A stretch of DNA of 48,017 nt from a virus. The stretch covers positions 1 to 48,017 of IMG/VR virus record IMGVR_UViG_3300046808_000076; one strand, given 5' to 3'. Of this stretch, positions 4,920 through 26,642 are shown piece by piece. Both the position numbers and the translations under genes were made by a program. The notes under the pieces were generated by a model. It ran no database searches. It had not been told where the DNA came from and worked only from the letters and a program-made list of their open reading frames with translations. Within the stretch, counting starts at the first letter, position 1. Each line of letters opens with the position of its first letter.

Positions 4920-5600
4920 TTATTTACTTACAAATTCCTCAGCCAAAGGAAATACTTTGGCGATTACCTTAGCACATTCACGAGCCACCAGCATGTGTTC
5001 TTTTTGGGTTCCATTAGCACTGCGCAATTCAATAAAATGAACCCAACTACGTAAAGTACCATTCATATACATTCTAGAAACAGTTAAACCCTCTGGTAAA
5101 ACTACTCTTGCTTGTTCTTTAGCGATATTATTTTTGATCGCCCACTCATAAGCATGAACAACTTCGCGCAAAACATCTTCTTGTTTTCTTTTCCACTCTT
5201 CTATTAAATTCTGCTCACCCAATGTCCAACCATTAATCTCAACTGAGTTTTGTCTATTCTTTGGATCCTGTAATCTTGGCTCACGAAGAACAAATGACAG
5301 ATCCTTTGTTGGATCTGCATATCTTTGACTAAACTCCTGGAATGAAAAAGAACGATGACGTAATATCTGTCTTGCTATATCACGTGTGGTCTCAATCTCT
5401 AAACACGCGGAAACCATTTCTAATGGTGACCAGTGTTTATGCTTGATAAGATATCGAATTAACTTCTCAGATGTTTCTGTATTTGTTTGATTGCTTGGGT
5501 TTGACACCCTCGCACAGAAAGCCACCAACTCCTGCATATTGTCGATGTGGGCTGGCAGATCTCCAGCTGGCTCGGAATAACTAATCAACTTCACTTTCAT
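4920..5600 (-). CDS. thyX: Flavin-dependent thymidylate synthase
   Basis: A 226-residue enzyme making dTMP from dUMP with methylene-tetrahydrofolate, FAD and NADPH. The ThyX signature RHRXXS is present at residues 81-86, followed by FQEFSQRY. The C-terminal part has the usual RSWVHFIELR substrate/flavin segment. I choose ATG 5600 over the in-frame ATG at 5612, because GGAG sits before 5600 and that ATG overlaps the primase stop as ATGA. Nothing in the sequence indicates a hydroxymethylase: it looks like a normal ThyX. If the phage carries modified thymine, this enzyme alone would therefore not explain it. Confidence 0.97.
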   Translation of the reverse strand: MKVKLISYSEPAGDLPAHIDNMQELVAFCARVSNPSNQTNTETSEKLIRYLIKHKHWSPLEMVSACLEIETTRDIARQILRHRSFSFQEFSQRYADPTKDLSFVLREPRLQDPKNRQNSVEINGWTLGEQNLIEEWKRKQEDVLREVVHAYEWAIKNNIAKEQARVVLPEGLTVSRMYMNGTLRSWVHFIELRSANGTQKEHMLVARECAKVIAKVFPLAEEFVSK

Positions 5601-6610
5601 ACTTTTCTCCATGTACCATATCTCAATTTCGCTTCCAGATTAGAGAAGGTGTTTGTATTTATCAATTCAAGAATTTCTTCAGAAGTTTTACCATGTAAAA
5701 TCATTTCATTAATATCTTTTTCCATTACGAAATCTGGAAACATACAAACATTATAACCCTCTTCAATGTATTTACCCATCTGTTTAACGATCTCTTTGTT
5801 TCTGGGTTCGTTATCCATAACTATAACTGCATTTGTCAACAAAGATTTAATTGTTGGCGTATCAAAACTAGCGCCACTAACTGCGATGGCATTTGGAAGA
5901 AACAGAGAGTCAATTGGTCCTTCCACAACATATATCTTTTTGGAAAAATCTATACGATCGAGACCATAAATCTTTTCCGTCTTTTCGTCGACCTTGATTG
6001 TATAATACTTAGGCTGTTCATCACCATACGCTCTGGCTTGAAAAGCAAAACACTTACCAGCATCTGTAAAGAATGGTATAATCATTCTTGGATGCTCACC
6101 TTCGATTGGCTCTACGAACTTTGGAGAGACAGAGTTAGTGAACTTCTTAAACTTTGGTGCGAAATAAAGATACTTCCACCTATCTTTGGGTATCTTACGA
6201 TCCGCAACGTATTTTACTGCTGGGTGGGTTTCATCCAACAAATCAATTCGCTTTAAAGGAGACAAAATGTCATCCTCTAATAAAATTGGTTTTGAATCTG
6301 GTACTGTTACTTCTTTGTGATCATTATATTTTGACGCTCCTGAAGTATAGCGCTCCAAAACATATTCATCATATAATTTTTGGTCGACACGTTTGATAAG
6401 ATTCCCGAGATTAGTTCCATAGCCACAATTATGACATTTCACGAACAAATCTGACTTCACACGATAGATATATCCTCGTGCTTTTAATTTATTTTTGGAA
6501 CTGTCTCCACAAACAGGGCAGCTAAAGTTCCACAAGTAATCATTTTTCTGCTTAAAGTTTCTTAGACGACCACCAAGAATACTTGCATACTTCTTATCAA
6601 TGTAAAGCAT
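5597..6610 (-). CDS. 61: DNA primase, T4 gp61 family
   Basis: A 337-residue primase that lays down RNA primers for lagging-strand synthesis with the gp41 helicase. An N-terminal zinc-binding domain has CPVCG (Cys31, Cys34) and CHNCG (Cys59, Cys62). The TOPRIM catalytic core follows, with the Glu in YVVEGPIDSLF and the acidic pair in VIVMDNEP. Length matches T4 gp61. It is the first gene behind a strong sigma70-like promoter (6633-6661) and is followed with 4-base overlap by thyX. GGAG lies upstream of ATG 6610. Confidence 0.95.
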   Translation of the reverse strand: MLYIDKKYASILGGRLRNFKQKNDYLWNFSCPVCGDSSKNKLKARGYIYRVKSDLFVKCHNCGYGTNLGNLIKRVDQKLYDEYVLERYTSGASKYNDHKEVTVPDSKPILLEDDILSPLKRIDLLDETHPAVKYVADRKIPKDRWKYLYFAPKFKKFTNSVSPKFVEPIEGEHPRMIIPFFTDAGKCFAFQARAYGDEQPKYYTIKVDEKTEKIYGLDRIDFSKKIYVVEGPIDSLFLPNAIAVSGASFDTPTIKSLLTNAVIVMDNEPRNKEIVKQMGKYIEEGYNVCMFPDFVMEKDINEMILHGKTSEEILELINTNTFSNLEAKLRYGTWRKV

Positions 6611-18829: not shown

Positions 18830-18856
18830 AATAACCCTGAACATTGTAAGGTTATT
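18830..18856 (-). terminator. Hairpin AATAACC...GGTTATT
   Basis: A 7-bp AATAACC/GGTTATT stem with a 13-base loop overlaps the stop codon of the upstream gene and abuts the next promoter. The same AATAACCCT-type arms recur at 35419 and 42505. Confidence 0.5.
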
Positions 18857-19586
18857 AAATTGTGACTATTACTGCTGTTGATGGAACTTTATCTGTTACA
18901 ACTATTCTTCCTGCAGAATCTCCGCGAGAGGGAGATTTTCCATAAATTTTTGGTGTTCCATCTTTATCTTTTGAAGCAGGATCGAATCTTTGATCTTCTC
19001 TTCTCGCTCGAAGTCTAAAGTACAATTCATGAGATTTGGCGTACTCATCTGCTTTTATTAGAGAACCATTTAGTTTTATAGTATTTGTTTTAGCATCATA
19101 TGGTCCAGAAACAGTCATTGGTCCAATGTACATGTAATCAATTGGTCCGCCCATAGCTACATTACCAACAACTATCTTTAACTTTGGTGCAGCGCTAATC
19201 TTACCAAATACATCTGGAACTTTATCACCAACACTTAACATTTTATTTAATTTGTTAAATGCTTCTGTCATAAATCTCTTCGCTATTCCTGGCACCGCAA
19301 GTTCTAGTCCACGAAGTCCTCCACCAGCGAGTGAGGGAGCAGACTCTCCTTTTAAAGAGCAGTTTATTTTCTTTATTGTATTGCCAGATTTGACATGAAT
19401 CACGACGTCAGTATATGGTTCTGAACCAGTCAACTGTCTACCAGTATATTTCTCAGCATGAATCACACCAGAGATTTTAGTTTTACCTGCTACTAGTGTT
19501 ATTGGATTTTTTGCGTTCTTTTTTACTGCGTCTGTTATCGCTTTAATGACGCCATTTTCTTGTCGTTCAGCAGATGCGCCAGCCAT
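18855..19586 (-). CDS. Conserved hypothetical protein in the structural region
   Basis: A 243-residue Lys/Gly-rich protein with alternating beta strands. A basic, ordered N-terminal part (KNPITLVAGKTKISGVIHAEKYTG) is followed by KINCSLKGESAPSLAGGGLRG and a MTEAFNKLNKML helix. The C-terminus (YFRLRARREDQRF, SPSRGDSAGRIVV) is basic and may bind nucleic acid. I do not recognise the family. It has a good ribosome site (GGAG before ATG 19586) and a late-promoter-like octamer 28 bases before the start, so late expression with virion genes is likely. Confidence 0.65.
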   Translation of the reverse strand: MAGASAERQENGVIKAITDAVKKNAKNPITLVAGKTKISGVIHAEKYTGRQLTGSEPYTDVVIHVKSGNTIKKINCSLKGESAPSLAGGGLRGLELAVPGIAKRFMTEAFNKLNKMLSVGDKVPDVFGKISAAPKLKIVVGNVAMGGPIDYMYIGPMTVSGPYDAKTNTIKLNGSLIKADEYAKSHELYFRLRARREDQRFDPASKDKDGTPKIYGKSPSRGDSAGRIVVTDKVPSTAVIVTI

Positions 19587-19612: not shown

Positions 19613-20332
19613 CTATTTATGCTTACGTGACAAACGAACTTGTTTCTTATATTTGCGATCCCATTTCATTACCTGTTGCATGATCTTTGGAATGGCATGA
19701 TTGTTTCGATAGTCGTAGTTGAAAGTGCGCAAAACATAATTCATATTCTTTGAATCTGCTTTGGACTTATTGGAACGGGAGATTAAAACTTCTGTTGGAA
19801 TGTTTGGTTTGTTGTTGCGATAGTCGAAGAATATACAATGAGCATATGCTTGTATCTCATCAAACTCTGAGAGATACTTTCTCTCTTCATTCTTCTTTCT
19901 TTGCTTGACTGTTTTGTATGGGAGAACATAACCTGACCACTCTCCATCTCTGCGATCGAACTGCATGAAGTGTATTAACTCATGCATCTGGATCTGTATC
20001 AGTCTATACTTAAATTTATCCCACGTGATTTCTGTGAAGGGGAATCTATCGTAGTAATCCGTGTAGATATGGATACCGATCTGACGTGGCTCTGGATCAT
20101 ACTCACCACCTATCCCGACGTAGGTTAGATAGCACTTGGCTTTGGATTTCTCTTGGCGGAACTCAATCTTGGTTCGCCACTTTTTGAAGTAGTTGATTAA
20201 TCCCCTGGAATCATTACGATAGTTATCTAGATCGTTCCAGATCTTTGCGGGAATAAATTTGGCTCTGAATGGACGCTCGTGAAAATTGAGCATCTCTATC
20301 CAGTCGTAGTCTAGCGTTTCTAGGAATTTCAT
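19613..20332 (-). CDS. Putative zinc metallopeptidase-like protein (HExxH)
   Basis: A 239-residue aromatic-rich protein. HELIH at 117-121 fits the zincin HExxH site, and SEFDEIQAYAH about 35 residues on offers Glu156 or Glu159 as third zinc ligand, a spacing used by gluzincin-like peptidases. A basic C-terminus (KYKKQVRLSRKHK) ends the protein. No signal peptide is present, so it should act in the cytoplasm or in the particle. It follows the kinase gene by 26 bases and precedes late structural genes. The peptidase call rests on the motif alone; a structural role is possible. Confidence 0.6.
   Translation of the reverse strand: MKFLETLDYDWIEMLNFHERPFRAKFIPAKIWNDLDNYRNDSRGLINYFKKWRTKIEFRQEKSKAKCYLTYVGIGGEYDPEPRQIGIHIYTDYYDRFPFTEITWDKFKYRLIQIQMHELIHFMQFDRRDGEWSGYVLPYKTVKQRKKNEERKYLSEFDEIQAYAHCIFFDYRNNKPNIPTEVLISRSNKSKADSKNMNYVLRTFNYDYRNNHAIPKIMQQVMKWDRKYKKQVRLSRKHK
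19614..19621 (-). promoter_or_regulatory. T4-type late promoter element
   Basis: CATAAATA fits the NATAAATA late -10 consensus of T4-like phages. It lies 28 bases before ATG 19586 and overlaps the stop codon (TAG) of the metallopeptidase-like gene. Confidence 0.5.
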
Positions 20333-20358: not shown

Positions 20359-20898
20359 TTAGGTTAAATTTTTCTCCAAAAACTCCAGAATTTTCCCTTG
20401 TTCCTCTAAGTTGGTGTTGGAAAACTCAGTGATATAGGGCATTATCTCGAAATTAGATAGTATATTACTATATTTAGTCTCCCTTCCTTTTAAGAACTGT
20501 TCAGATTGATCCGACCCTCTTTCTTGATACCTTTGCTCCAGGATAGCCTTCGGTGCTTTTAAATAGACTACCTGCAGATCTACCTGAGGGAGTTTCATAC
20601 AGAACTCTAGGAAGGACTGATTAAAGATCCTATCGCCCTCGAATAGGATATTAGACTTACAGTCGCTGACAAATTCTTGGGCTATGGGTTGAACTGCCAT
20701 CGATAGTCGATCGGTTCCAGCAAAGGTCTCGCCTTCCTCATACTTACCAAGAACATAAAGATTTAACTCCTCACAGAATAGAGCAGGAAGCATCTTCTTG
20801 GGTTCGCATTTATTCCACTCATATGAGAGCATAAACTCTCTAAACAGAGTGGTCTTACCAGTTCCAGGAGATCCACCAACAGCAACAATCTTTCTCAT
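20359..20898 (-). CDS. P-loop kinase, 5-hydroxymethyluridine-DNA-kinase-like
   Basis: A 179-residue P-loop NTPase. Walker A is GGSPGTGKT at residues 8-16. GTDRLSMAVQP and ILFEGDR follow, then a lid-type RYQERGSDQSEQFLKGRETKY segment rich in Arg. This pattern resembles the phage 5hmU-DNA kinases (HMUDK) of thymine hypermodification, and less closely polynucleotide or nucleoside kinases. It overlaps the helical protein gene upstream as ATGA and is the third gene of the operon that starts at the promoter 23234-23262. Substrate is inferred from sequence pattern and neighbours: 5-hydroxymethyl pyrimidine in DNA is my first choice, a free nucleotide the second. Confidence 0.6.
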   Translation of the reverse strand: MRKIVAVGGSPGTGKTTLFREFMLSYEWNKCEPKKMLPALFCEELNLYVLGKYEEGETFAGTDRLSMAVQPIAQEFVSDCKSNILFEGDRIFNQSFLEFCMKLPQVDLQVVYLKAPKAILEQRYQERGSDQSEQFLKGRETKYSNILSNFEIMPYITEFSNTNLEEQGKILEFLEKNLT

Positions 20899-21914
20899 AC
20901 AAATGCCTCCAATCCATATAAAGGTTTCACTTCGTCGTCAAACATCCATTCTAACTTTTCCATTTTACCAGTATTGAGGAATGATAAGAATTTTTCTTTG
21001 TCGATACCTCTTTTGTGATCCAGTCGAAAGTCAATCGTTTCCTCTCTCGATTGCCACAAAACATCCCAGTCAATTCCATACCATCCGTCACTCTCACACT
21101 GCATAATTTCTTCTGCTTGACGATCAAGATAATATCCAAGATAACGTCCATGATGTTGCCTAAAGATCTTTTTGTACGAACAGAGACAGGTTTCCATGGT
21201 GAAGAAATCAACAACACTATTTAAATGCGGAAATCTGTTTCTAGTTTCCTCGAGGATCGATTTCGCTTCTTGTTCAAGTCTGTCATAATCTCCCGCAGTA
21301 AGTTTGACATCATAGTTGTCATCTTGTCCAATGGCGAGAAGAAGCCCATTACGATGACTGCGAGAGCCATCAAAATCATTAAGCATGAGGCTAGTAGGAT
21401 TAATCCTAATCCCAGCAGTATGCTTAAGATGCTGAAGATAAAACCAAGTGCTATAACGACCAAACTTGTGAAGCCCAGTTTTAATGCTTGCCCACAAATT
21501 GTCAAATGACTGTTCTTCTGTATCACCATAATAACTCTCCAATACCTCTCGTTGTGTTTTGTTTCCAATAAACTTCTGGTAAGATGCGAACATAGAAGGC
21601 AGATGCCCTTTGTTCCACTTGGTGTCTGTTTGATAACGCAGACGTTTGTAGTTGGCAGTATTCCACTGCTCCATTCTATCAACTGTGGCGAGTTCAAAGT
21701 CAGGGAACTCATTCATTAGAATCCATGCAGTTGGTAGATAATACGTATTGCCATAGAGCCAGCATAACCAAAGACGCTGCTCATTGTTATGTAGATATCT
21801 TTTGTTTAGATAGTTAGTGCACCAAACCGCTGGGTCGCAATCGTTAAACTTTAATGACCACGCATACCAGCGGATAAATGATTCACGTCGATTTTCTTTT
21901 AAACGGTAGTCCAT
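20895..21914 (-). CDS. Helical protein of DNA-base hypermodification type (HMUDK-helical/aGPT-PPlase/transferase group)
   Basis: A 339-residue, strongly helical, Trp/Tyr-rich protein. Notable segments are IRWYAWSLKFNDCDPAVW, WLYGNTYYLPTAWILMNEFPD and FGRYSTWFYLQHL followed by NDFDGSRSHRNG. They resemble the glycosylase-fold and helical families that Iyer, Aravind and colleagues linked to thymine hypermodification (alpha-glutamyl/putrescinyl thymine pyrophosphorylases, amino acid:DNA transferases, HMUDK helical domain). I cannot tell which family it is. It sits between a ParB-type gene (TAATG overlap) and the kinase (ATGA overlap), the arrangement expected for such a system. The exact reaction is unknown. 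Confidence 0.5.
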   Translation of the reverse strand: MDYRLKENRRESFIRWYAWSLKFNDCDPAVWCTNYLNKRYLHNNEQRLWLCWLYGNTYYLPTAWILMNEFPDFELATVDRMEQWNTANYKRLRYQTDTKWNKGHLPSMFASYQKFIGNKTQREVLESYYGDTEEQSFDNLWASIKTGLHKFGRYSTWFYLQHLKHTAGIRINPTSLMLNDFDGSRSHRNGLLLAIGQDDNYDVKLTAGDYDRLEQEAKSILEETRNRFPHLNSVVDFFTMETCLCSYKKIFRQHHGRYLGYYLDRQAEEIMQCESDGWYGIDWDVLWQSREETIDFRLDHKRGIDKEKFLSFLNTGKMEKLEWMFDDEVKPLYGLEAFV

Positions 21915-23206
21915 TAAAAGTTAATTGTTTGTTGTTTTTGGAATGAGTCGAGAACTACATACTTTATGTTACACTTTGGATGAAGACGCTTCATACCTTC
22001 TTTTAGTTTTTCTTCAGCAGATGCCCAGGAATCATGTTCAGAAATATTTCCGTGGTGTGTAACAATTAAACCTTCCCATGTATTCATACCACCCATTTTA
22101 TTAATCACCGCACCGATACCAGCATTATAAATCGCTCCTGAAGATACAGATATAACAGCAAGTTTTGGATGCTGATACTCAACATGTTTAACAATCCAGT
22201 CAAGATCTGTTTTTGAATAAGTTTGAAAATTTAATTTGGCTTGTGCGTAATTAGTTTTAATACGCTTACGTGCCTCTATAAGATTACTAGAAATTGTACT
22301 CTTTGTCCATCGTGGATGAAGAATCTCTTCACAAGTAGTTTTAAATTTATCACTATCTAATAGTACAAAGTTTCTATCCTGATCTTCTAAATTATTAGTA
22401 TACAAGTTGATAATAGCACGCTGACAGTCTTGTGGTGTGGGAGGTTTCTTAATCTGTGGATTATGGTTGGCGATAATACCGAAATGATCAATATTAGATT
22501 TTTTGTCTAGAAATTCACTGCTGTTAATATAGATAACTGGAGCAGATGTCCACCCTGCTTTAATAACTGCCTTAGAAGTATGATTCCCGTCAATAATAGT
22601 TTTAGAACCATCTTTTCCAACACAAACAATAATTGGAGAGATATTTTTTCGAGCCTCGACTGGATCATGAATCATGTTGTCAGAAATTGCGCGCACATGA
22701 TTATGATCAATCATAATTAGTCGAACCTGATTGTGTTTAAACTTTACAATCTCGCTGACTAGTTCTTCAATCACTTCATATTTTTTGTCTTTAACAGACT
22801 GCCAAAGATTATCAACTAAGTCAGTATCAACAAAATTAAATATATCAATATGTTCGACTGGATCAACTCCGTTTATCCAATCGATTCCTATTTTGGCTTG
22901 TTCATCAGTAATTATTTTATAGTCTTGAATCCCAGCGCCACCACCATTTGATCGATTATAAAATTTATTATTACGTCGAGCATCACCATATTTAAGCAGT
23001 TTGCGTTCCATGGTAATAGCTGTAATTTTATCACCACGATAAAGAATTGAACGACGAAGTAATCCAAGAGACCATGCTTCTTTTAACTCTTGGTCCTCAG
23101 AAGAAAATACATAGCCGTCATTCACATCGGAATTCTTTCGAAATCCGATATACATTTTTCCATTATTAATATTTCGCCAGCCATAAACAAATGCTTCAAA
23201 AATCAT
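21914..23206 (-). CDS. GIY-YIG plus ParB-like fusion protein
   Basis: A 430-residue two-part protein. Residues 1-95 resemble a GIY-YIG nuclease, with FVYGWRNINNGKMYIGFRK at the two half-motifs. Residues about 160-230 carry a ParB/sulfiredoxin-like fold, with the phosphate-binding type loop IIDGNHTSKAV around Asp206-His209. The rest (KPPTPQDCQRAIINLY; SVSSGAIYNAGIGAVINKMGG) is unassigned. ParB-like domains can act as CTPases or nucleases and occur in phage DNA-modification loci. GGAGG precedes ATG 23206, directly behind a strong promoter. A role in recognising or cutting unmodified DNA is possible but speculative. Confidence 0.7.
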   Translation of the reverse strand: MIFEAFVYGWRNINNGKMYIGFRKNSDVNDGYVFSSEDQELKEAWSLGLLRRSILYRGDKITAITMERKLLKYGDARRNNKFYNRSNGGGAGIQDYKIITDEQAKIGIDWINGVDPVEHIDIFNFVDTDLVDNLWQSVKDKKYEVIEELVSEIVKFKHNQVRLIMIDHNHVRAISDNMIHDPVEARKNISPIIVCVGKDGSKTIIDGNHTSKAVIKAGWTSAPVIYINSSEFLDKKSNIDHFGIIANHNPQIKKPPTPQDCQRAIINLYTNNLEDQDRNFVLLDSDKFKTTCEEILHPRWTKSTISSNLIEARKRIKTNYAQAKLNFQTYSKTDLDWIVKHVEYQHPKLAVISVSSGAIYNAGIGAVINKMGGMNTWEGLIVTHHGNISEHDSWASAEEKLKEGMKRLHPKCNIKYVVLDSFQKQQTINF

Positions 23207-23233
23207 ATATCAACTCCTCCATAATATAACTCT

Positions 23234-23262
23234 ATTATACTACAGAAATGAATTTAAGTCAA
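23234..23262 (-). promoter_or_regulatory. Sigma70-like promoter of the ParB-helical-kinase operon
   Basis: TTGACT, a 17-base spacer and TATAAT on the minus strand, 28 bases before ATG 23206. The -35 box lies inside the 3' end of the GNAT gene, so this operon can be switched on independently of the upstream one. Confidence 0.8.
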
Positions 23263-23782
23263 CACTTTCTTGCACCGTGTAGGACGAAGCCAGACTTCCC
23301 TTCCGACCGCTGTATAGTGCTTTCCTGATCACAGGATCGTTCTCATCGTATATTCCAGTGGCATAGTCTTTGCTTGCAACTTTGAACATAGAAAGACTGC
23401 AACCAGACTTCTGTTTACCCCAAAACTTGATGCCACATTTCTCATAGAATTGAACCGCATCTGGCTCTGCAGAAACTCTAAAGTAAACTGCTCCAGATGC
23501 TATTGCATGCGTTAAGGAAAAGTCAGTGAGTGCTTTACCGACTCCCCTTCCCCTATGTTTATAGAATGTATGAAGTAGTTGTAGATTGGCTACCTTTGGA
23601 TCTTTTTTAGATACGGTAGTTATGATTGCGCCTAACAATTCTCCATTATCCCATGCACCCATACAGCAGTCCCACTGTTCTTGCATGTTTGCTTTGGCAA
23701 CGAAAGTCTTGGCGAAGTTATCCGCTTTGTGGTCAGATATTTGAGATATGAATTCTTCTTTAGTGCACTTATGCAACTTCAT
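23240..23782 (-). CDS. GNAT-family N-acetyltransferase
   Basis: A 180-residue protein. Acetyl-CoA binding motif A is seen as HRGRGVGKALTD, and the downstream EPDAVQFYEKCGIKFW strand-helix fits GNAT motif B. The start could be ATG 23782 or an in-frame GTG at 23806; I use the ATG because the N-terminus MKLHKCTKEEF fits the fold, although its Shine-Dalgarno is poor. It overlaps the amidoligase end by 14 bases, so it is probably translated by coupling. Acceptor is unknown: possible targets are an amino group placed on DNA, a small metabolite or a host protein. Confidence 0.85.
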   Translation of the reverse strand: MKLHKCTKEEFISQISDHKADNFAKTFVAKANMQEQWDCCMGAWDNGELLGAIITTVSKKDPKVANLQLLHTFYKHRGRGVGKALTDFSLTHAIASGAVYFRVSAEPDAVQFYEKCGIKFWGKQKSGCSLSMFKVASKDYATGIYDENDPVIRKALYSGRKGSLASSYTVQESVDLNSFL

Positions 23783-24647
23783 GGTATTCACGATGTTTCT
23801 CACCACGCTCTTTGGGATACTTTGTTTTCTCCCATCCTACGTATTCATTTAGATTCCATACGAATGGTGGGAATTTATAGTCATCAGTAGAAAGAATTTC
23901 TTTGACGGATGGTCCATTGTTTAGTGCAGCAGAAATAAATTTCTCTGCGAACTTAAATTGCGATTCTATTTCCTCTCTACTAACTGATGATCTAAAACAA
24001 CGAAACTCAATAGTGCCTGTGTGTTTCATGCAATACGTATTGATGGCATACCTAAATGGTCTTCCCATAGAAACTCCATCCTTGCCTGCTGCATGTAGAC
24101 GAATAAAGTCTTCAAAGTCTTTCGCTAGATTGATAATGTTATCACACATATAATCTGGCATTGGTCTACCACCATCATACTTGAGATACATCTTAGCACC
24201 TTTACATGACTTCATTTGTCCTGCCTCATAGAACTGGTAACAGGATTCAATAACATCATTTTGATTCTCTTTGATATATTTAACCAGACGCTTGAGACCG
24301 TCTACGTCATCTTTAAGACCAGGAACAAATACGTGTAAATGCCCATGATTGACGCATGACGCTGATGGCTGATTTCCATTACTTACAAAGAAATCATGTA
24401 ATTCCATAATACGATCGACCTGTTGCTTCCATGTTTTAGTTGGCATGGTATTTATCTCACCACCCATATATGGCTCTTCACCCAAAGGATCGCACGCTAC
24501 ATATTTAAATGGATCATGAATGTTTACAATATCAGTTTCTGCATATTCCCATTTACCGAGATTCTCAGGAACCTGCAGACGACGATCAATGTCACCCCAT
24601 TCTATCTCGTAACCCCATGTGTAATTCTCAGATGGATATTGTTTCAT
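23769..24647 (-). CDS. Amidoligase-family enzyme (COOH-NH2 ligase)
   Basis: A 292-residue enzyme. GYEIEW (Glu14, Glu16), GGEINT at 62-67, HLHVF at 103-107 and TIEFRCFR near residue 215 are the conserved Glu/His/Arg pattern of the glutamine-synthetase/GCS-like Amidoligase_2 family. These enzymes join a carboxylate to an amine with ATP. It follows a class II glutamine amidotransferase gene with a 20-base overlap and precedes a GNAT gene, a phage neighbourhood of the kind described for amidoligases by Iyer and Aravind. GAGG lies before ATG 24647. Substrates are unknown: a peptide, cell-wall part or DNA-linked amino acid are all possible. Confidence 0.8.
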   Translation of the reverse strand: MKQYPSENYTWGYEIEWGDIDRRLQVPENLGKWEYAETDIVNIHDPFKYVACDPLGEEPYMGGEINTMPTKTWKQQVDRIMELHDFFVSNGNQPSASCVNHGHLHVFVPGLKDDVDGLKRLVKYIKENQNDVIESCYQFYEAGQMKSCKGAKMYLKYDGGRPMPDYMCDNIINLAKDFEDFIRLHAAGKDGVSMGRPFRYAINTYCMKHTGTIEFRCFRSSVSREEIESQFKFAEKFISAALNNGPSVKEILSTDDYKFPPFVWNLNEYVGWEKTKYPKERGEKHREYHEVA

Positions 24648-25341
24648 ATTCTACCTCTTGTAAGTCAAGATTGTCCACGTAAACTTTTTTAATATCAGTT
24701 GTAAGGTTAGAGTCGATCGTCATATATGTATTCATTGGAACCTCTGTTGACATCTCAAGACCAGCACGCTTTGCTATGTCTGGTGTAGAAGTCACAACAT
24801 ATCCATTTTGCACTGCCGTGAAATACAGAGGACGTTTACCATTTCTATAGAAACGCATTCTTCTAGTTAAATAGAGTTCAACTACACCCATTGACATATG
24901 AGAAAACTCATTCAGTGGATCTTCAGAATGTAAAACTAATTCGCTATCATTCTTAGTAATGCAGTCGTATCCATAAAGGTCTTTCCATTTCTCTGGCAAC
25001 TCTTGAGTGATGACGCCATTATGAACGATAGATTTCTCATTGTAATACAATGGTTGATTATACTCAAGATCACTGGTCGAATAACGACAATGACCAATTA
25101 AATATAGATTGCCATCTTCTGCAAGCATGTCGGATAGATTGTCATTGTGAAGATATTTCTCTACAAATTTGTCTGCTGGGATTGGCTCTTGAATTGTTTC
25201 AATTTTGAAACTCCACTTTGGTAAGAACGACATACCAGTAGCATGCATTCCACGAATCTTAGATTCAAGAAATACTCTGTGTATCATGTCAAAATCCTCT
25301 TTAGAGGGTTTCTGTATAATCAATCCAATGACGGCACACAT
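24628..25341 (-). CDS. Class II glutamine amidotransferase (Ntn-hydrolase)
   Basis: A 237-residue stand-alone GATase II. The nucleophile Cys2 follows Met1 directly (MCAVIG), as required after Met removal. GHCRYSTSD at 83-91 and VHNGVI at 106-111 are the glutamine-binding motifs of the PurF/GlmS-type fold. It would release ammonia from glutamine, presumably for the amidoligase translated just after it (20-base overlap). Its start overlaps the stop of the TET/JBP-like gene as TAATG, so it is tightly coupled to that oxygenase. No synthase domain is fused, so the acceptor enzyme must be separate. Confidence 0.9.
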   Translation of the reverse strand: MCAVIGLIIQKPSKEDFDMIHRVFLESKIRGMHATGMSFLPKWSFKIETIQEPIPADKFVEKYLHNDNLSDMLAEDGNLYLIGHCRYSTSDLEYNQPLYYNEKSIVHNGVITQELPEKWKDLYGYDCITKNDSELVLHSEDPLNEFSHMSMGVVELYLTRRMRFYRNGKRPLYFTAVQNGYVVTSTPDIAKRAGLEMSTEVPMNTYMTIDSNLTTDIKKVYVDNLDLQEVEYETISI

Positions 25342-26642
25342 TATGCAAAGAACTCCTCAATTGTTGACTTGTCTGCTTCTGGATGATACTTTACCAGTTC
25401 AGATCTACCTAGTTTAGACTCACAATAGTCATACCATTCATCGCTCGTCCACATTCCCTGAGATACACCATTCCATAATGGACGCCACTCTGGATGTTCT
25501 TTATTGAGTCTTCTGTTCTCAACAAAATCAAATCTAGTATCTTCATACTCTTTGCTGCCAAGTTCTAACATCTTCTCACGGAAATAACAAACAAGACTGA
25601 TACGCTCGGCTACTTCATCATGACATATGATTGGTGTATTTCCATGAATAACATCGTGATTATTAATCAACAATAGATCTCCAGGTCTTACGTTTACTGC
25701 GACTCTATACTCTGGTGCTACAAGATATGCTCCTGTATAGTTTCCATTGTTTGTGAGAGTTAACAGATTTGATAAACCAGAGTTCAAATCACCAGCATCT
25801 CTGTGGGCTGCAGTTCTAAATGTCTTGTTAACTGTGATTGTTGTAAATGGAGTTTCTGGTACAAGAAATCTAGAATCAATCTTGTTTGCTGCTTCCATCT
25901 GGTTTGCATATCTCCACGGCATAAGTTCTTTGAATCCCGTCGCCAATGTCTGAAGAAATGGAAATGCCAGTTTAAACTTATCAAAATTATCTCTGGTATA
26001 AGAAGTAGCACGACCGTATGGTATTCTAGGATAACGATCAAACCATCCAGCAATACCAGAATTAACAGAGTTGGCATATGTAGTTTGACAGATTAGTTTA
26101 TCTGCAACAAACTCAGCAGAATCTCTTGCTGCATCCTTAGACATCTTTCGTGCCTTCTCTACCCAAGTTTCAAACTCAAAGTTCTCTTGTTTGACTCTTT
26201 CAATAGACCAAACTCTGGCTCTGTTAGATACAGAATCTTTTTTGTTTTCGTATTTCTTCTTAATCTCTTCGATTGGATCTTCGCCAAAAAGATTTTCTGT
26301 TGGTTTCAAAAACTGATCTATGATATCATATTGATACTCTGTCACCCATTCACGATTGCCAAGTTTCTCAGCTCGTGGACCAGCAGCAAGACCACGATTC
26401 TGCGTTTCAGTTGCTGCCTCTCTCAAACCAGCATACGCTGCATCCTGCTGCTCTTTAGAAAAGTAGTTTTTACGAAACTTTAGAATTATTCTTTCTTCTG
26501 ATAGCGACTCTGCCTGACCTGGAATATCTGGCATGTATACATCTGCATCTTCTTCGATCAGAGTATCATAATGACTCTCGTCAAGAAACTGCCCAAGTAA
26601 ATGTTCGCAATTGATTTTCTTATCAGCGACAATAACTTTCAT
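25341..26642 (-). CDS. TET/JBP-family 2OG-Fe(II) DNA dioxygenase
   Basis: A 433-residue protein. The iron facial triad is His280-x-Asp282 (AHRDAGDL) and His333 in VIHGNTPI; Arg347 in ERISLVCYF is the 2-oxoglutarate-binding residue. VNKTFRTAAHRD, YRVAVNVRPGD and the N-terminal QNRGLAAGPR resemble TET/JBP proteins rather than AlkB or prolyl hydroxylases. Members hydroxylate 5-methylcytosine or thymine in duplex DNA. GGAG precedes ATG 26642, 9 bases after gp41, so it is part of the replication operon. It should act after replication. Which base it oxidises cannot be read from the sequence. Confidence 0.85.
   Translation of the reverse strand: MKVIVADKKINCEHLLGQFLDESHYDTLIEEDADVYMPDIPGQAESLSEERIILKFRKNYFSKEQQDAAYAGLREAATETQNRGLAAGPRAEKLGNREWVTEYQYDIIDQFLKPTENLFGEDPIEEIKKKYENKKDSVSNRARVWSIERVKQENFEFETWVEKARKMSKDAARDSAEFVADKLICQTTYANSVNSGIAGWFDRYPRIPYGRATSYTRDNFDKFKLAFPFLQTLATGFKELMPWRYANQMEAANKIDSRFLVPETPFTTITVNKTFRTAAHRDAGDLNSGLSNLLTLTNNGNYTGAYLVAPEYRVAVNVRPGDLLLINNHDVIHGNTPIICHDEVAERISLVCYFREKMLELGSKEYEDTRFDFVENRRLNKEHPEWRPLWNGVSQGMWTSDEWYDYCESKLGRSELVKYHPEADKSTIEEFFA

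Follow-up and report, generated by a model that had tools for sequence, protein, structure and literature searches.

Seven consecutive genes of a T4-like phage and a predicted oxygenase-first route to hypermodified thymine in DNA

The 48,017-base linear viral contig analyzed here (IMG/VR record IMGVR_UViG_3300046808_000076, hereafter the window) belongs to a T4-like phage. On its minus strand, at 20359-26642, seven consecutive open reading frames (ORFs) follow a helicase-like gene and encode, in this order, a TET/JBP oxygenase, a class II glutamine amidotransferase (GATase), an amidoligase, a GNAT acetyltransferase, a GIY-YIG/ParB protein, an amino acid:DNA transferase (ADDT) and a P-loop kinase. 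From the genes, we consider it probable that the phage uses this cluster to hypermodify thymine in its own DNA, with the oxygenase taking the first step. In the proposed pathway, the flavin-dependent thymidylate synthase ThyX would make deoxythymidine monophosphate (dTMP) and the phage would replicate with ordinary thymine. The oxygenase would then hydroxylate the methyl group of thymine in DNA to 5-hydroxymethyluracil (5hmU), the kinase would phosphorylate the hydroxymethyl group to give 5-phosphomethyluracil, and ADDT would put a free amino acid in the place of the phosphate to give an amino-acid-methyluracil. GNAT and GATase would tailor the attached amino acid to an acetylated and/or amidated product and, where it is encoded, a ligase of the glutamine-synthetase (GS) fold would form an amide on the amino acid's carboxylate, perhaps with the GATase as its source of ammonia. 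Most likely, the modification would protect the phage's DNA against restriction by the host and against other nucleases. Activities underlying the kinase and transferase steps were reportedly described by Lee and coworkers in 2018 and 2022, and the 2022 work is said to provide a precedent in the acetylation of amino-acid-derived thymines. The first three steps, those of the oxygenase, kinase and ADDT, follow from established family activities (PMC6449724, PMC7653180).

The initial annotation of this region had read the same seven genes from the letters of the sequence, and all seven minus-strand ORFs are present at its coordinates. It had proposed hydroxylation in finished DNA followed by kinase activation, transfer and tailoring; as an inference, this scheme is well supported by the families, by their joint inheritance and by the failure to find a hydroxymethylase, also in relatives that seem complete.

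The oxygenase (25341..26642, minus strand, 433 amino acids) is a 2-oxoglutarate- and Fe(II)-dependent dioxygenase of TET/JBP type. It matches Pfam Tet_JBP PF12851 above the cut-off (4.3e-26) and phrog_24024 at 4e-169. As had been read from the sequence, the residues His280, Asp282, His333 and Arg347 are the relevant ones: among 71 TET relatives each is conserved in 95% or more, and in an alignment with human TET2 H280-x-D282 falls on the HRD. The enzyme is the proposed hydroxylase of thymine to 5hmU on DNA. The family name 'SNF2 DNA repair protein' in GenBank was considered and rejected, since no SNF2 domain is reported and Tet_JBP is found instead. Such misleading names occur in the records of phages Cr30, DLP6 and S-CBWM1, where the TET family is called 'SNF2 DNA repair protein' and the kinase family 'terminase small subunit'.

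In order to examine linkage, TET and ADDT relatives were collected from viral contigs (356 and 214 relatives, respectively) and the gene order was read, which gave 46 distinct complete intervals. The oxygenase is followed by GATase, ADDT and kinase all together in 40 of them and by a different two-gene cassette, c10-c12, in the other 6; none has half a set. Across all fetched loci, where loci of one contig may count twice, ADDT occurs in 118 and c10 in 61, never both. Among 93 loci having both the oxygenase and the gene at the far boundary of the cluster, 65 carry ADDT, 28 carry c10 and none carries neither, and c10 adjoins the oxygenase in all but one locus. The strongest argument for TET as the maker of the group on which the later enzymes work is this all-or-none exchange of cassettes beside the same oxygenase. 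Within the 40 ADDT-type intervals, GNAT is present in 39, the amidoligase in 15 and the GIY-YIG/ParB gene in 8; GATase and GNAT are missing from all c10-type intervals. The seven-gene island as first described thus holds for TET, GATase, GNAT, ADDT and kinase, which are inherited together, and has to be narrowed for the amidoligase and the GIY-YIG/ParB protein, which are accessory and stand outside the core.

A glycosyltransferase function for c10 is a guess. Weak matches to Glyco_trans_1_2 were seen in 3 of 9 members (best 0.099), the predicted structure has a predicted local distance difference test (pLDDT) score of 45 and retrieved no PDB relative of use, and comparison with the glycosyltransferase-like gene of locus L130 gave no result of use. 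In phage S-CBWM1, a member of the same TET group lies beside a TET-associated glycosyltransferase (3.5e-10). In phage C48C1 (L003:11323-13352) TET is followed by a gene without an assigned family and then by a UDP-galactopyranose mutase (PF03275, 6e-52), an arrangement which suggests that the TET product there receives a sugar, perhaps galactofuranose.

The tailoring genes lie next to the oxygenase. The GATase (24628..25341, minus strand, 237 amino acids; core) is a stand-alone class II enzyme that matches GATase_6 above the cut-off (1.5e-8), with partial matches to PurF (4.5e-8) and AsnB (7.8e-7) and no synthetase domain. It has the motifs GHCRYST, HNG and ND and the full class II residue set, with Cys2 as nucleophile and an Asn-Gly oxyanion hole; C2, R86, N108, G109 and D132 are kept in 57 relatives. 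It may transfer ammonia to the adduct or may act by gamma-glutamyl transfer. The amidoligase (23769..24647, minus strand, 292 amino acids), an Amidoligase_2-like ATP-dependent carboxylate-amine ligase, falls below the Pfam PF12224 cut-off (16.4 bits versus 22; E-value 0.0087). The earlier assignment, weak by sequence, is clear by predicted fold: the AlphaFold2 model (pLDDT 75, predicted template modeling score 0.80) indicates a GS fold, with YbdK and glutathione and glutamine synthetases at 1e-4 in Foldseek and VIA Z of 9-10.8 to GS-fold ligases (YbdK, GS, GshA). Among the structural matches listed for it, all are GS-fold proteins (YbdK, glutathione and glutamine synthetases, Dop/PafA), and its GxExE, GGExNT, HxH and EFRxF motifs are invariant. 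The GNAT N-acetyltransferase (23240..23806, minus strand, 188 amino acids; Acetyltransf_10, 1.5e-11) is core and fast evolving. The accessory gene at 21914..23206 (minus strand) encodes one 430-residue protein with a GIY-YIG domain at about residues 6-97 (phrog_314, 1.5e-5) and a ParB-like domain at about residues 178-225 (phrog_723, 3.6e-4). The GATase II, GNAT and GIY-YIG/ParB families named initially were all recovered.

GS-fold amidoligases and class II GATases also co-occur in other contexts, which counts for the possibility that GATase, amidoligase and GNAT serve a small molecule, a protein or the cell wall, leaving work on DNA to TET, ADDT and kinase. The presence of the amidoligase in so few relatives is consistent with it. 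We regard this division of the cluster as unlikely, although it is the strongest of the alternatives: GATase accompanies ADDT and kinase in 40/40 relatives and GNAT in 39/40, both are missing where c10 takes their place, and the genes of the cluster overlap. An ATP-dependent amide ligase acting on a DNA base also has a precedent in CmoY (PMC12783734).

The kinase (20359..20898, minus strand, 179 amino acids; motifs GSPGTGKT, GKY, GTDR and FEG) matches phrog_800 (5e-14) and Pfam Ploopntkinase3 (2e-6). The same phrog_800 holds M6 gp54 (2e-39) and ViI gp61 (2e-67), which match the Pfam '5-hmdU DNA kinase' model at 8e-18 and 3e-116. Profile-profile comparison (hhalign) of the kinase group with the M6 and ViI 5hmU-DNA kinases gave 97% and 1e-10, and the alignment of the window kinase with those of M6 and ViI has, beside the P-loop, common GKY/GDY, GxD and FEG motifs. 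A PDB sequence search returned nothing useful. A kinase for 5-hydroxymethyldeoxyuridine (5hmdU) is active on phage DNA (PMC7653180). We thus take the window protein, as first annotated, to be a member of this family and a putative 5hmU kinase. PHROGs and several GenBank records name the family terminase small subunit, a misnomer given that it includes the 5hmU kinases of M6 and ViI.

The ADDT gene (20895..21914, minus strand, 339 amino acids) matches PF18724 at 3.7e-22 (79.6 bits; cut-off 26.2), and the model also matches M6 gp51, ViI and Cr30 gp123. The protein is proposed to swap the phosphate of 5-phosphomethyl-deoxyuridine for an amino acid. It had been described as a helical protein of hypermodification type; the hypermodification family stands, and the family HMUDK_hel is ruled out by the Pfam match to ADDT. 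The profile searches place neither this protein nor the kinase in an unrelated family.

The substrate of the oxygenase is likely thymine already in DNA, because ThyX for dTMP is present and there is apparently no source of 5-hydroxymethyl-dUMP or of 5-methylcytosine (5mC). ThyX (4920..5612, minus strand; Pfam Thy1, 3.7e-45) has the RHRx7S motif (RHRSFSFQEFS), as it does in all 8 metagenomic relatives searched; since it supplies dTMP, ordinary thymine presumably goes into the DNA during synthesis. We know of no hydroxymethylating ThyX, which bears against an origin of the hydroxymethyl group before replication. As initially noted for the window, no hydroxymethylase was seen: PF00303, the thymidylate-synthase/hydroxymethylase family, is found neither there nor in relatives G001-G011, nor in larger fragments. 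Among the relatives, G001, G002, G003, G004 and G006 (160-168 kb) have direct terminal repeats of 104-127 bp, taken as a sign that each is a whole circular genome. As positive controls, the dUMP hydroxymethylases of M6 and ViI and T4 gp42 are detected with this search, and the PF00303 gene of Cr30 (372.9 bits) scores like an ordinary thymidylate synthase. The C5-cytosine methylase family PF00145 was found in none of 12 relatives' genomes (a search that did not extend to the window as a genome).

This last result bears on a cytosine version of the pathway, in which TET would convert 5mC in DNA to 5-hydroxymethylcytosine that is then phosphorylated and aminated. The TET/JBP family spans both bases, and characterized phage TETs reportedly work on 5mC (Burke 2021, cited in PMC13222311). 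The 12 genomes without a C5-cytosine methyltransferase leave no phage source of 5mC, and the characterized kinases of phrog_800 act on 5hmdU (PMC7653180); we therefore judge the cytosine version improbable. Least probable of all is installation of the hydroxymethyl group before replication by an unrecognized hydroxymethylase, such as an altered ThyX or a host enzyme, with TET only further oxidizing or editing: M6, ViI and phiW-14, the phages of the characterized kinases, do incorporate 5hmdU at replication (PMC6449724, PMC5977210) and ThyX is found in every metagenomic relative searched, but its motif is the ordinary one, PF00303 does detect hydroxymethylases in the controls, and both alternative cassettes depend on the same TET, fitting TET as a common first step.

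Several points weigh against the preferred route from thymine in DNA. The kinase is just 22-25% identical to those of M6 and ViI, is not reported by the Pfam HMUDK model PF18748, and belongs to a phrog_800 that at weak E-values also matches unrelated P-loop proteins. ADDT is 18% identical to M6 gp51, and the ADDT group is divergent, such that its profile built without M6 fails to retrieve the solved glycinyltransferase. In 25 of the 40 relatives the GATase occurs without the amidoligase that might use its ammonia. A hydroxymethylase of some other, unrecognized family may exist, and the completeness of the five large relatives rests on their short terminal repeats.

Oxygenase-first modification as such is not new, and the initial view of it as an unusual design was overstated. 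In base J, JBP1/2 hydroxylate thymine in DNA and the J-glucosyltransferase caps it. This resembles the window in that a TET/JBP enzyme acts on DNA thymine and a second enzyme caps; base J is, however, eukaryotic and its cap is glucose, not phosphate and then an amino acid. TET-started hypermodification in phages was reportedly predicted by Iyer et al. in 2013. In Burke's phage system of 2021 the 5mC is said to be made by a phage methylase, in contrast to the window's relatives without PF00145; its TET reportedly also makes a hydroxymethyl handle in finished DNA.

In M6 and ViI the tailoring enzymes are radical SAM, pyridoxal-phosphate or flavin enzymes, as opposed to the GATase and amidoligase of the window. 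These phages, like the window, carry in one genome the 5hmU DNA kinase family, an ADDT-type transferase and tailoring enzymes. Together with phiW-14 they build hypermodified thymine by kinase and transferase on 5hmdU already incorporated into DNA (PMC6449724), and differ from the window in having a dUMP hydroxymethylase that acts before replication, where the window has a TET oxygenase and no hydroxymethylase was found in it. Rhodococcus phage Tonitrus has a cluster, annotated for thymidine hypermodification, of a TET-like protein, a 5hmU DNA kinase and a ParB-like protein (PMC11955845); unlike the window, it has aGPT-Pplase2 in place of ADDT, GATase, amidoligase and GNAT are not reported, and the evidence is annotation only. 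The CmoA/CmoX/CmoY system of Synechococcus phage S-B43 shares with the window an ATP-dependent amide ligase on a modified phage DNA base, although its handle is carboxymethylcytosine and its ligase an asparagine-synthetase homolog, not a GS-fold enzyme (PMC12783734). The cultured T4-like Caulobacter phage Cr30 (NC_025422; gp129, gp123, gp122, gp114) has a TET of 47% identity, ADDT (PF18724, 1e-52) and a phrog_800 kinase, and this makes the idea testable. Its genes are more dispersed than those of the window, a TET-associated-glycosyltransferase-like gene adjoins ADDT, and no GATase match was found within the 21 kb examined.

What appears new, and what we have not found described, is the predicted combination of a TET-first route feeding kinase and ADDT with GATase and amidoligase tailoring. 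The fuller proposal, that the route ends in GATase/GS-fold amidation of a DNA-bound amino acid and that TET is a common entry to swappable finishing cassettes adding an amino acid or, perhaps, a sugar, is tentative, and we think it rather doubtful in its entirety. If true, phages could arrive at hypermodified DNA derived from 5hmU while leaving the nucleotide pool as it is, copying with ordinary thymine and modifying afterwards, and would combine two modes of DNA modification already known from phages. TET would be a shared starting point for interchangeable finishing enzymes, a GS-fold ligase that works on a base in DNA would bring a new chemistry to this molecule, and new enzymes for the selective labeling of thymine in DNA would follow. 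The system is common, occurring in hundreds of viral contigs.

As for layout, UvsX-like and helicase-like ORFs precede the cluster, the helicase-like gene directly adjoining its TET end. The spacing between the seven ORFs is -1, -20, -38, +33, -1 and -4 bases, and on account of these overlaps the cluster is probably translationally coupled. Ratios of nonsynonymous to synonymous substitution (dN/dS) against the closest relatives are 0.05-0.09 for TET, ADDT, kinase and GATase, 0.03-0.09 when the amidoligase is counted with these four, 0.14-0.20 for GNAT and 0.17-0.35 for the GIY-YIG/ParB protein, with no stops; this purifying selection rules out chance or decaying ORFs. Elsewhere the window has T4-like genes for DNA polymerase, clamp, clamp loader, ligase, a gp46-like SbcC and ribonucleotide reductase. 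Our impression, judged from the sources of the relatives, is that this virus of bacteria comes from a freshwater habitat.

Other genes were observed between ADDT and kinase in relatives. A flavin-dependent tryptophan halogenase (PF04820, 8e-93) lies there at L130:10139-11611 (= L246:8001-9473, same contig), in a cluster that also has a low-molecular-weight phosphatase and the glycosyltransferase-like gene; none of the halogenase relatives elsewhere is near such clusters. The radical SAM enzyme c16 (PF04055, 1e-13), at L153:11020-12447 and in L258-L262 and L266, is reminiscent of the radical SAM step in phage M6. A protein of about 135 amino acids (c7, e.g. L089:11017-11433), with no confident family, occupies this position in 27 of the 40 relatives and is not in the window.

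Beyond the kinase, the boundary gene (19613..20332, minus strand, 239 amino acids, HELIHF motif) had no confident family match; it lies downstream of both cassette types, at the point where the exchangeable cassette stops. Just downstream of it, the slot at 18855-19586 holds many mutually unrelated genes across relatives (L016, L035, L113, L137 and others), and some of them resemble PD-(D/E)XK nuclease folds by eye. The modification cluster thus has a hypervariable slot beside it.

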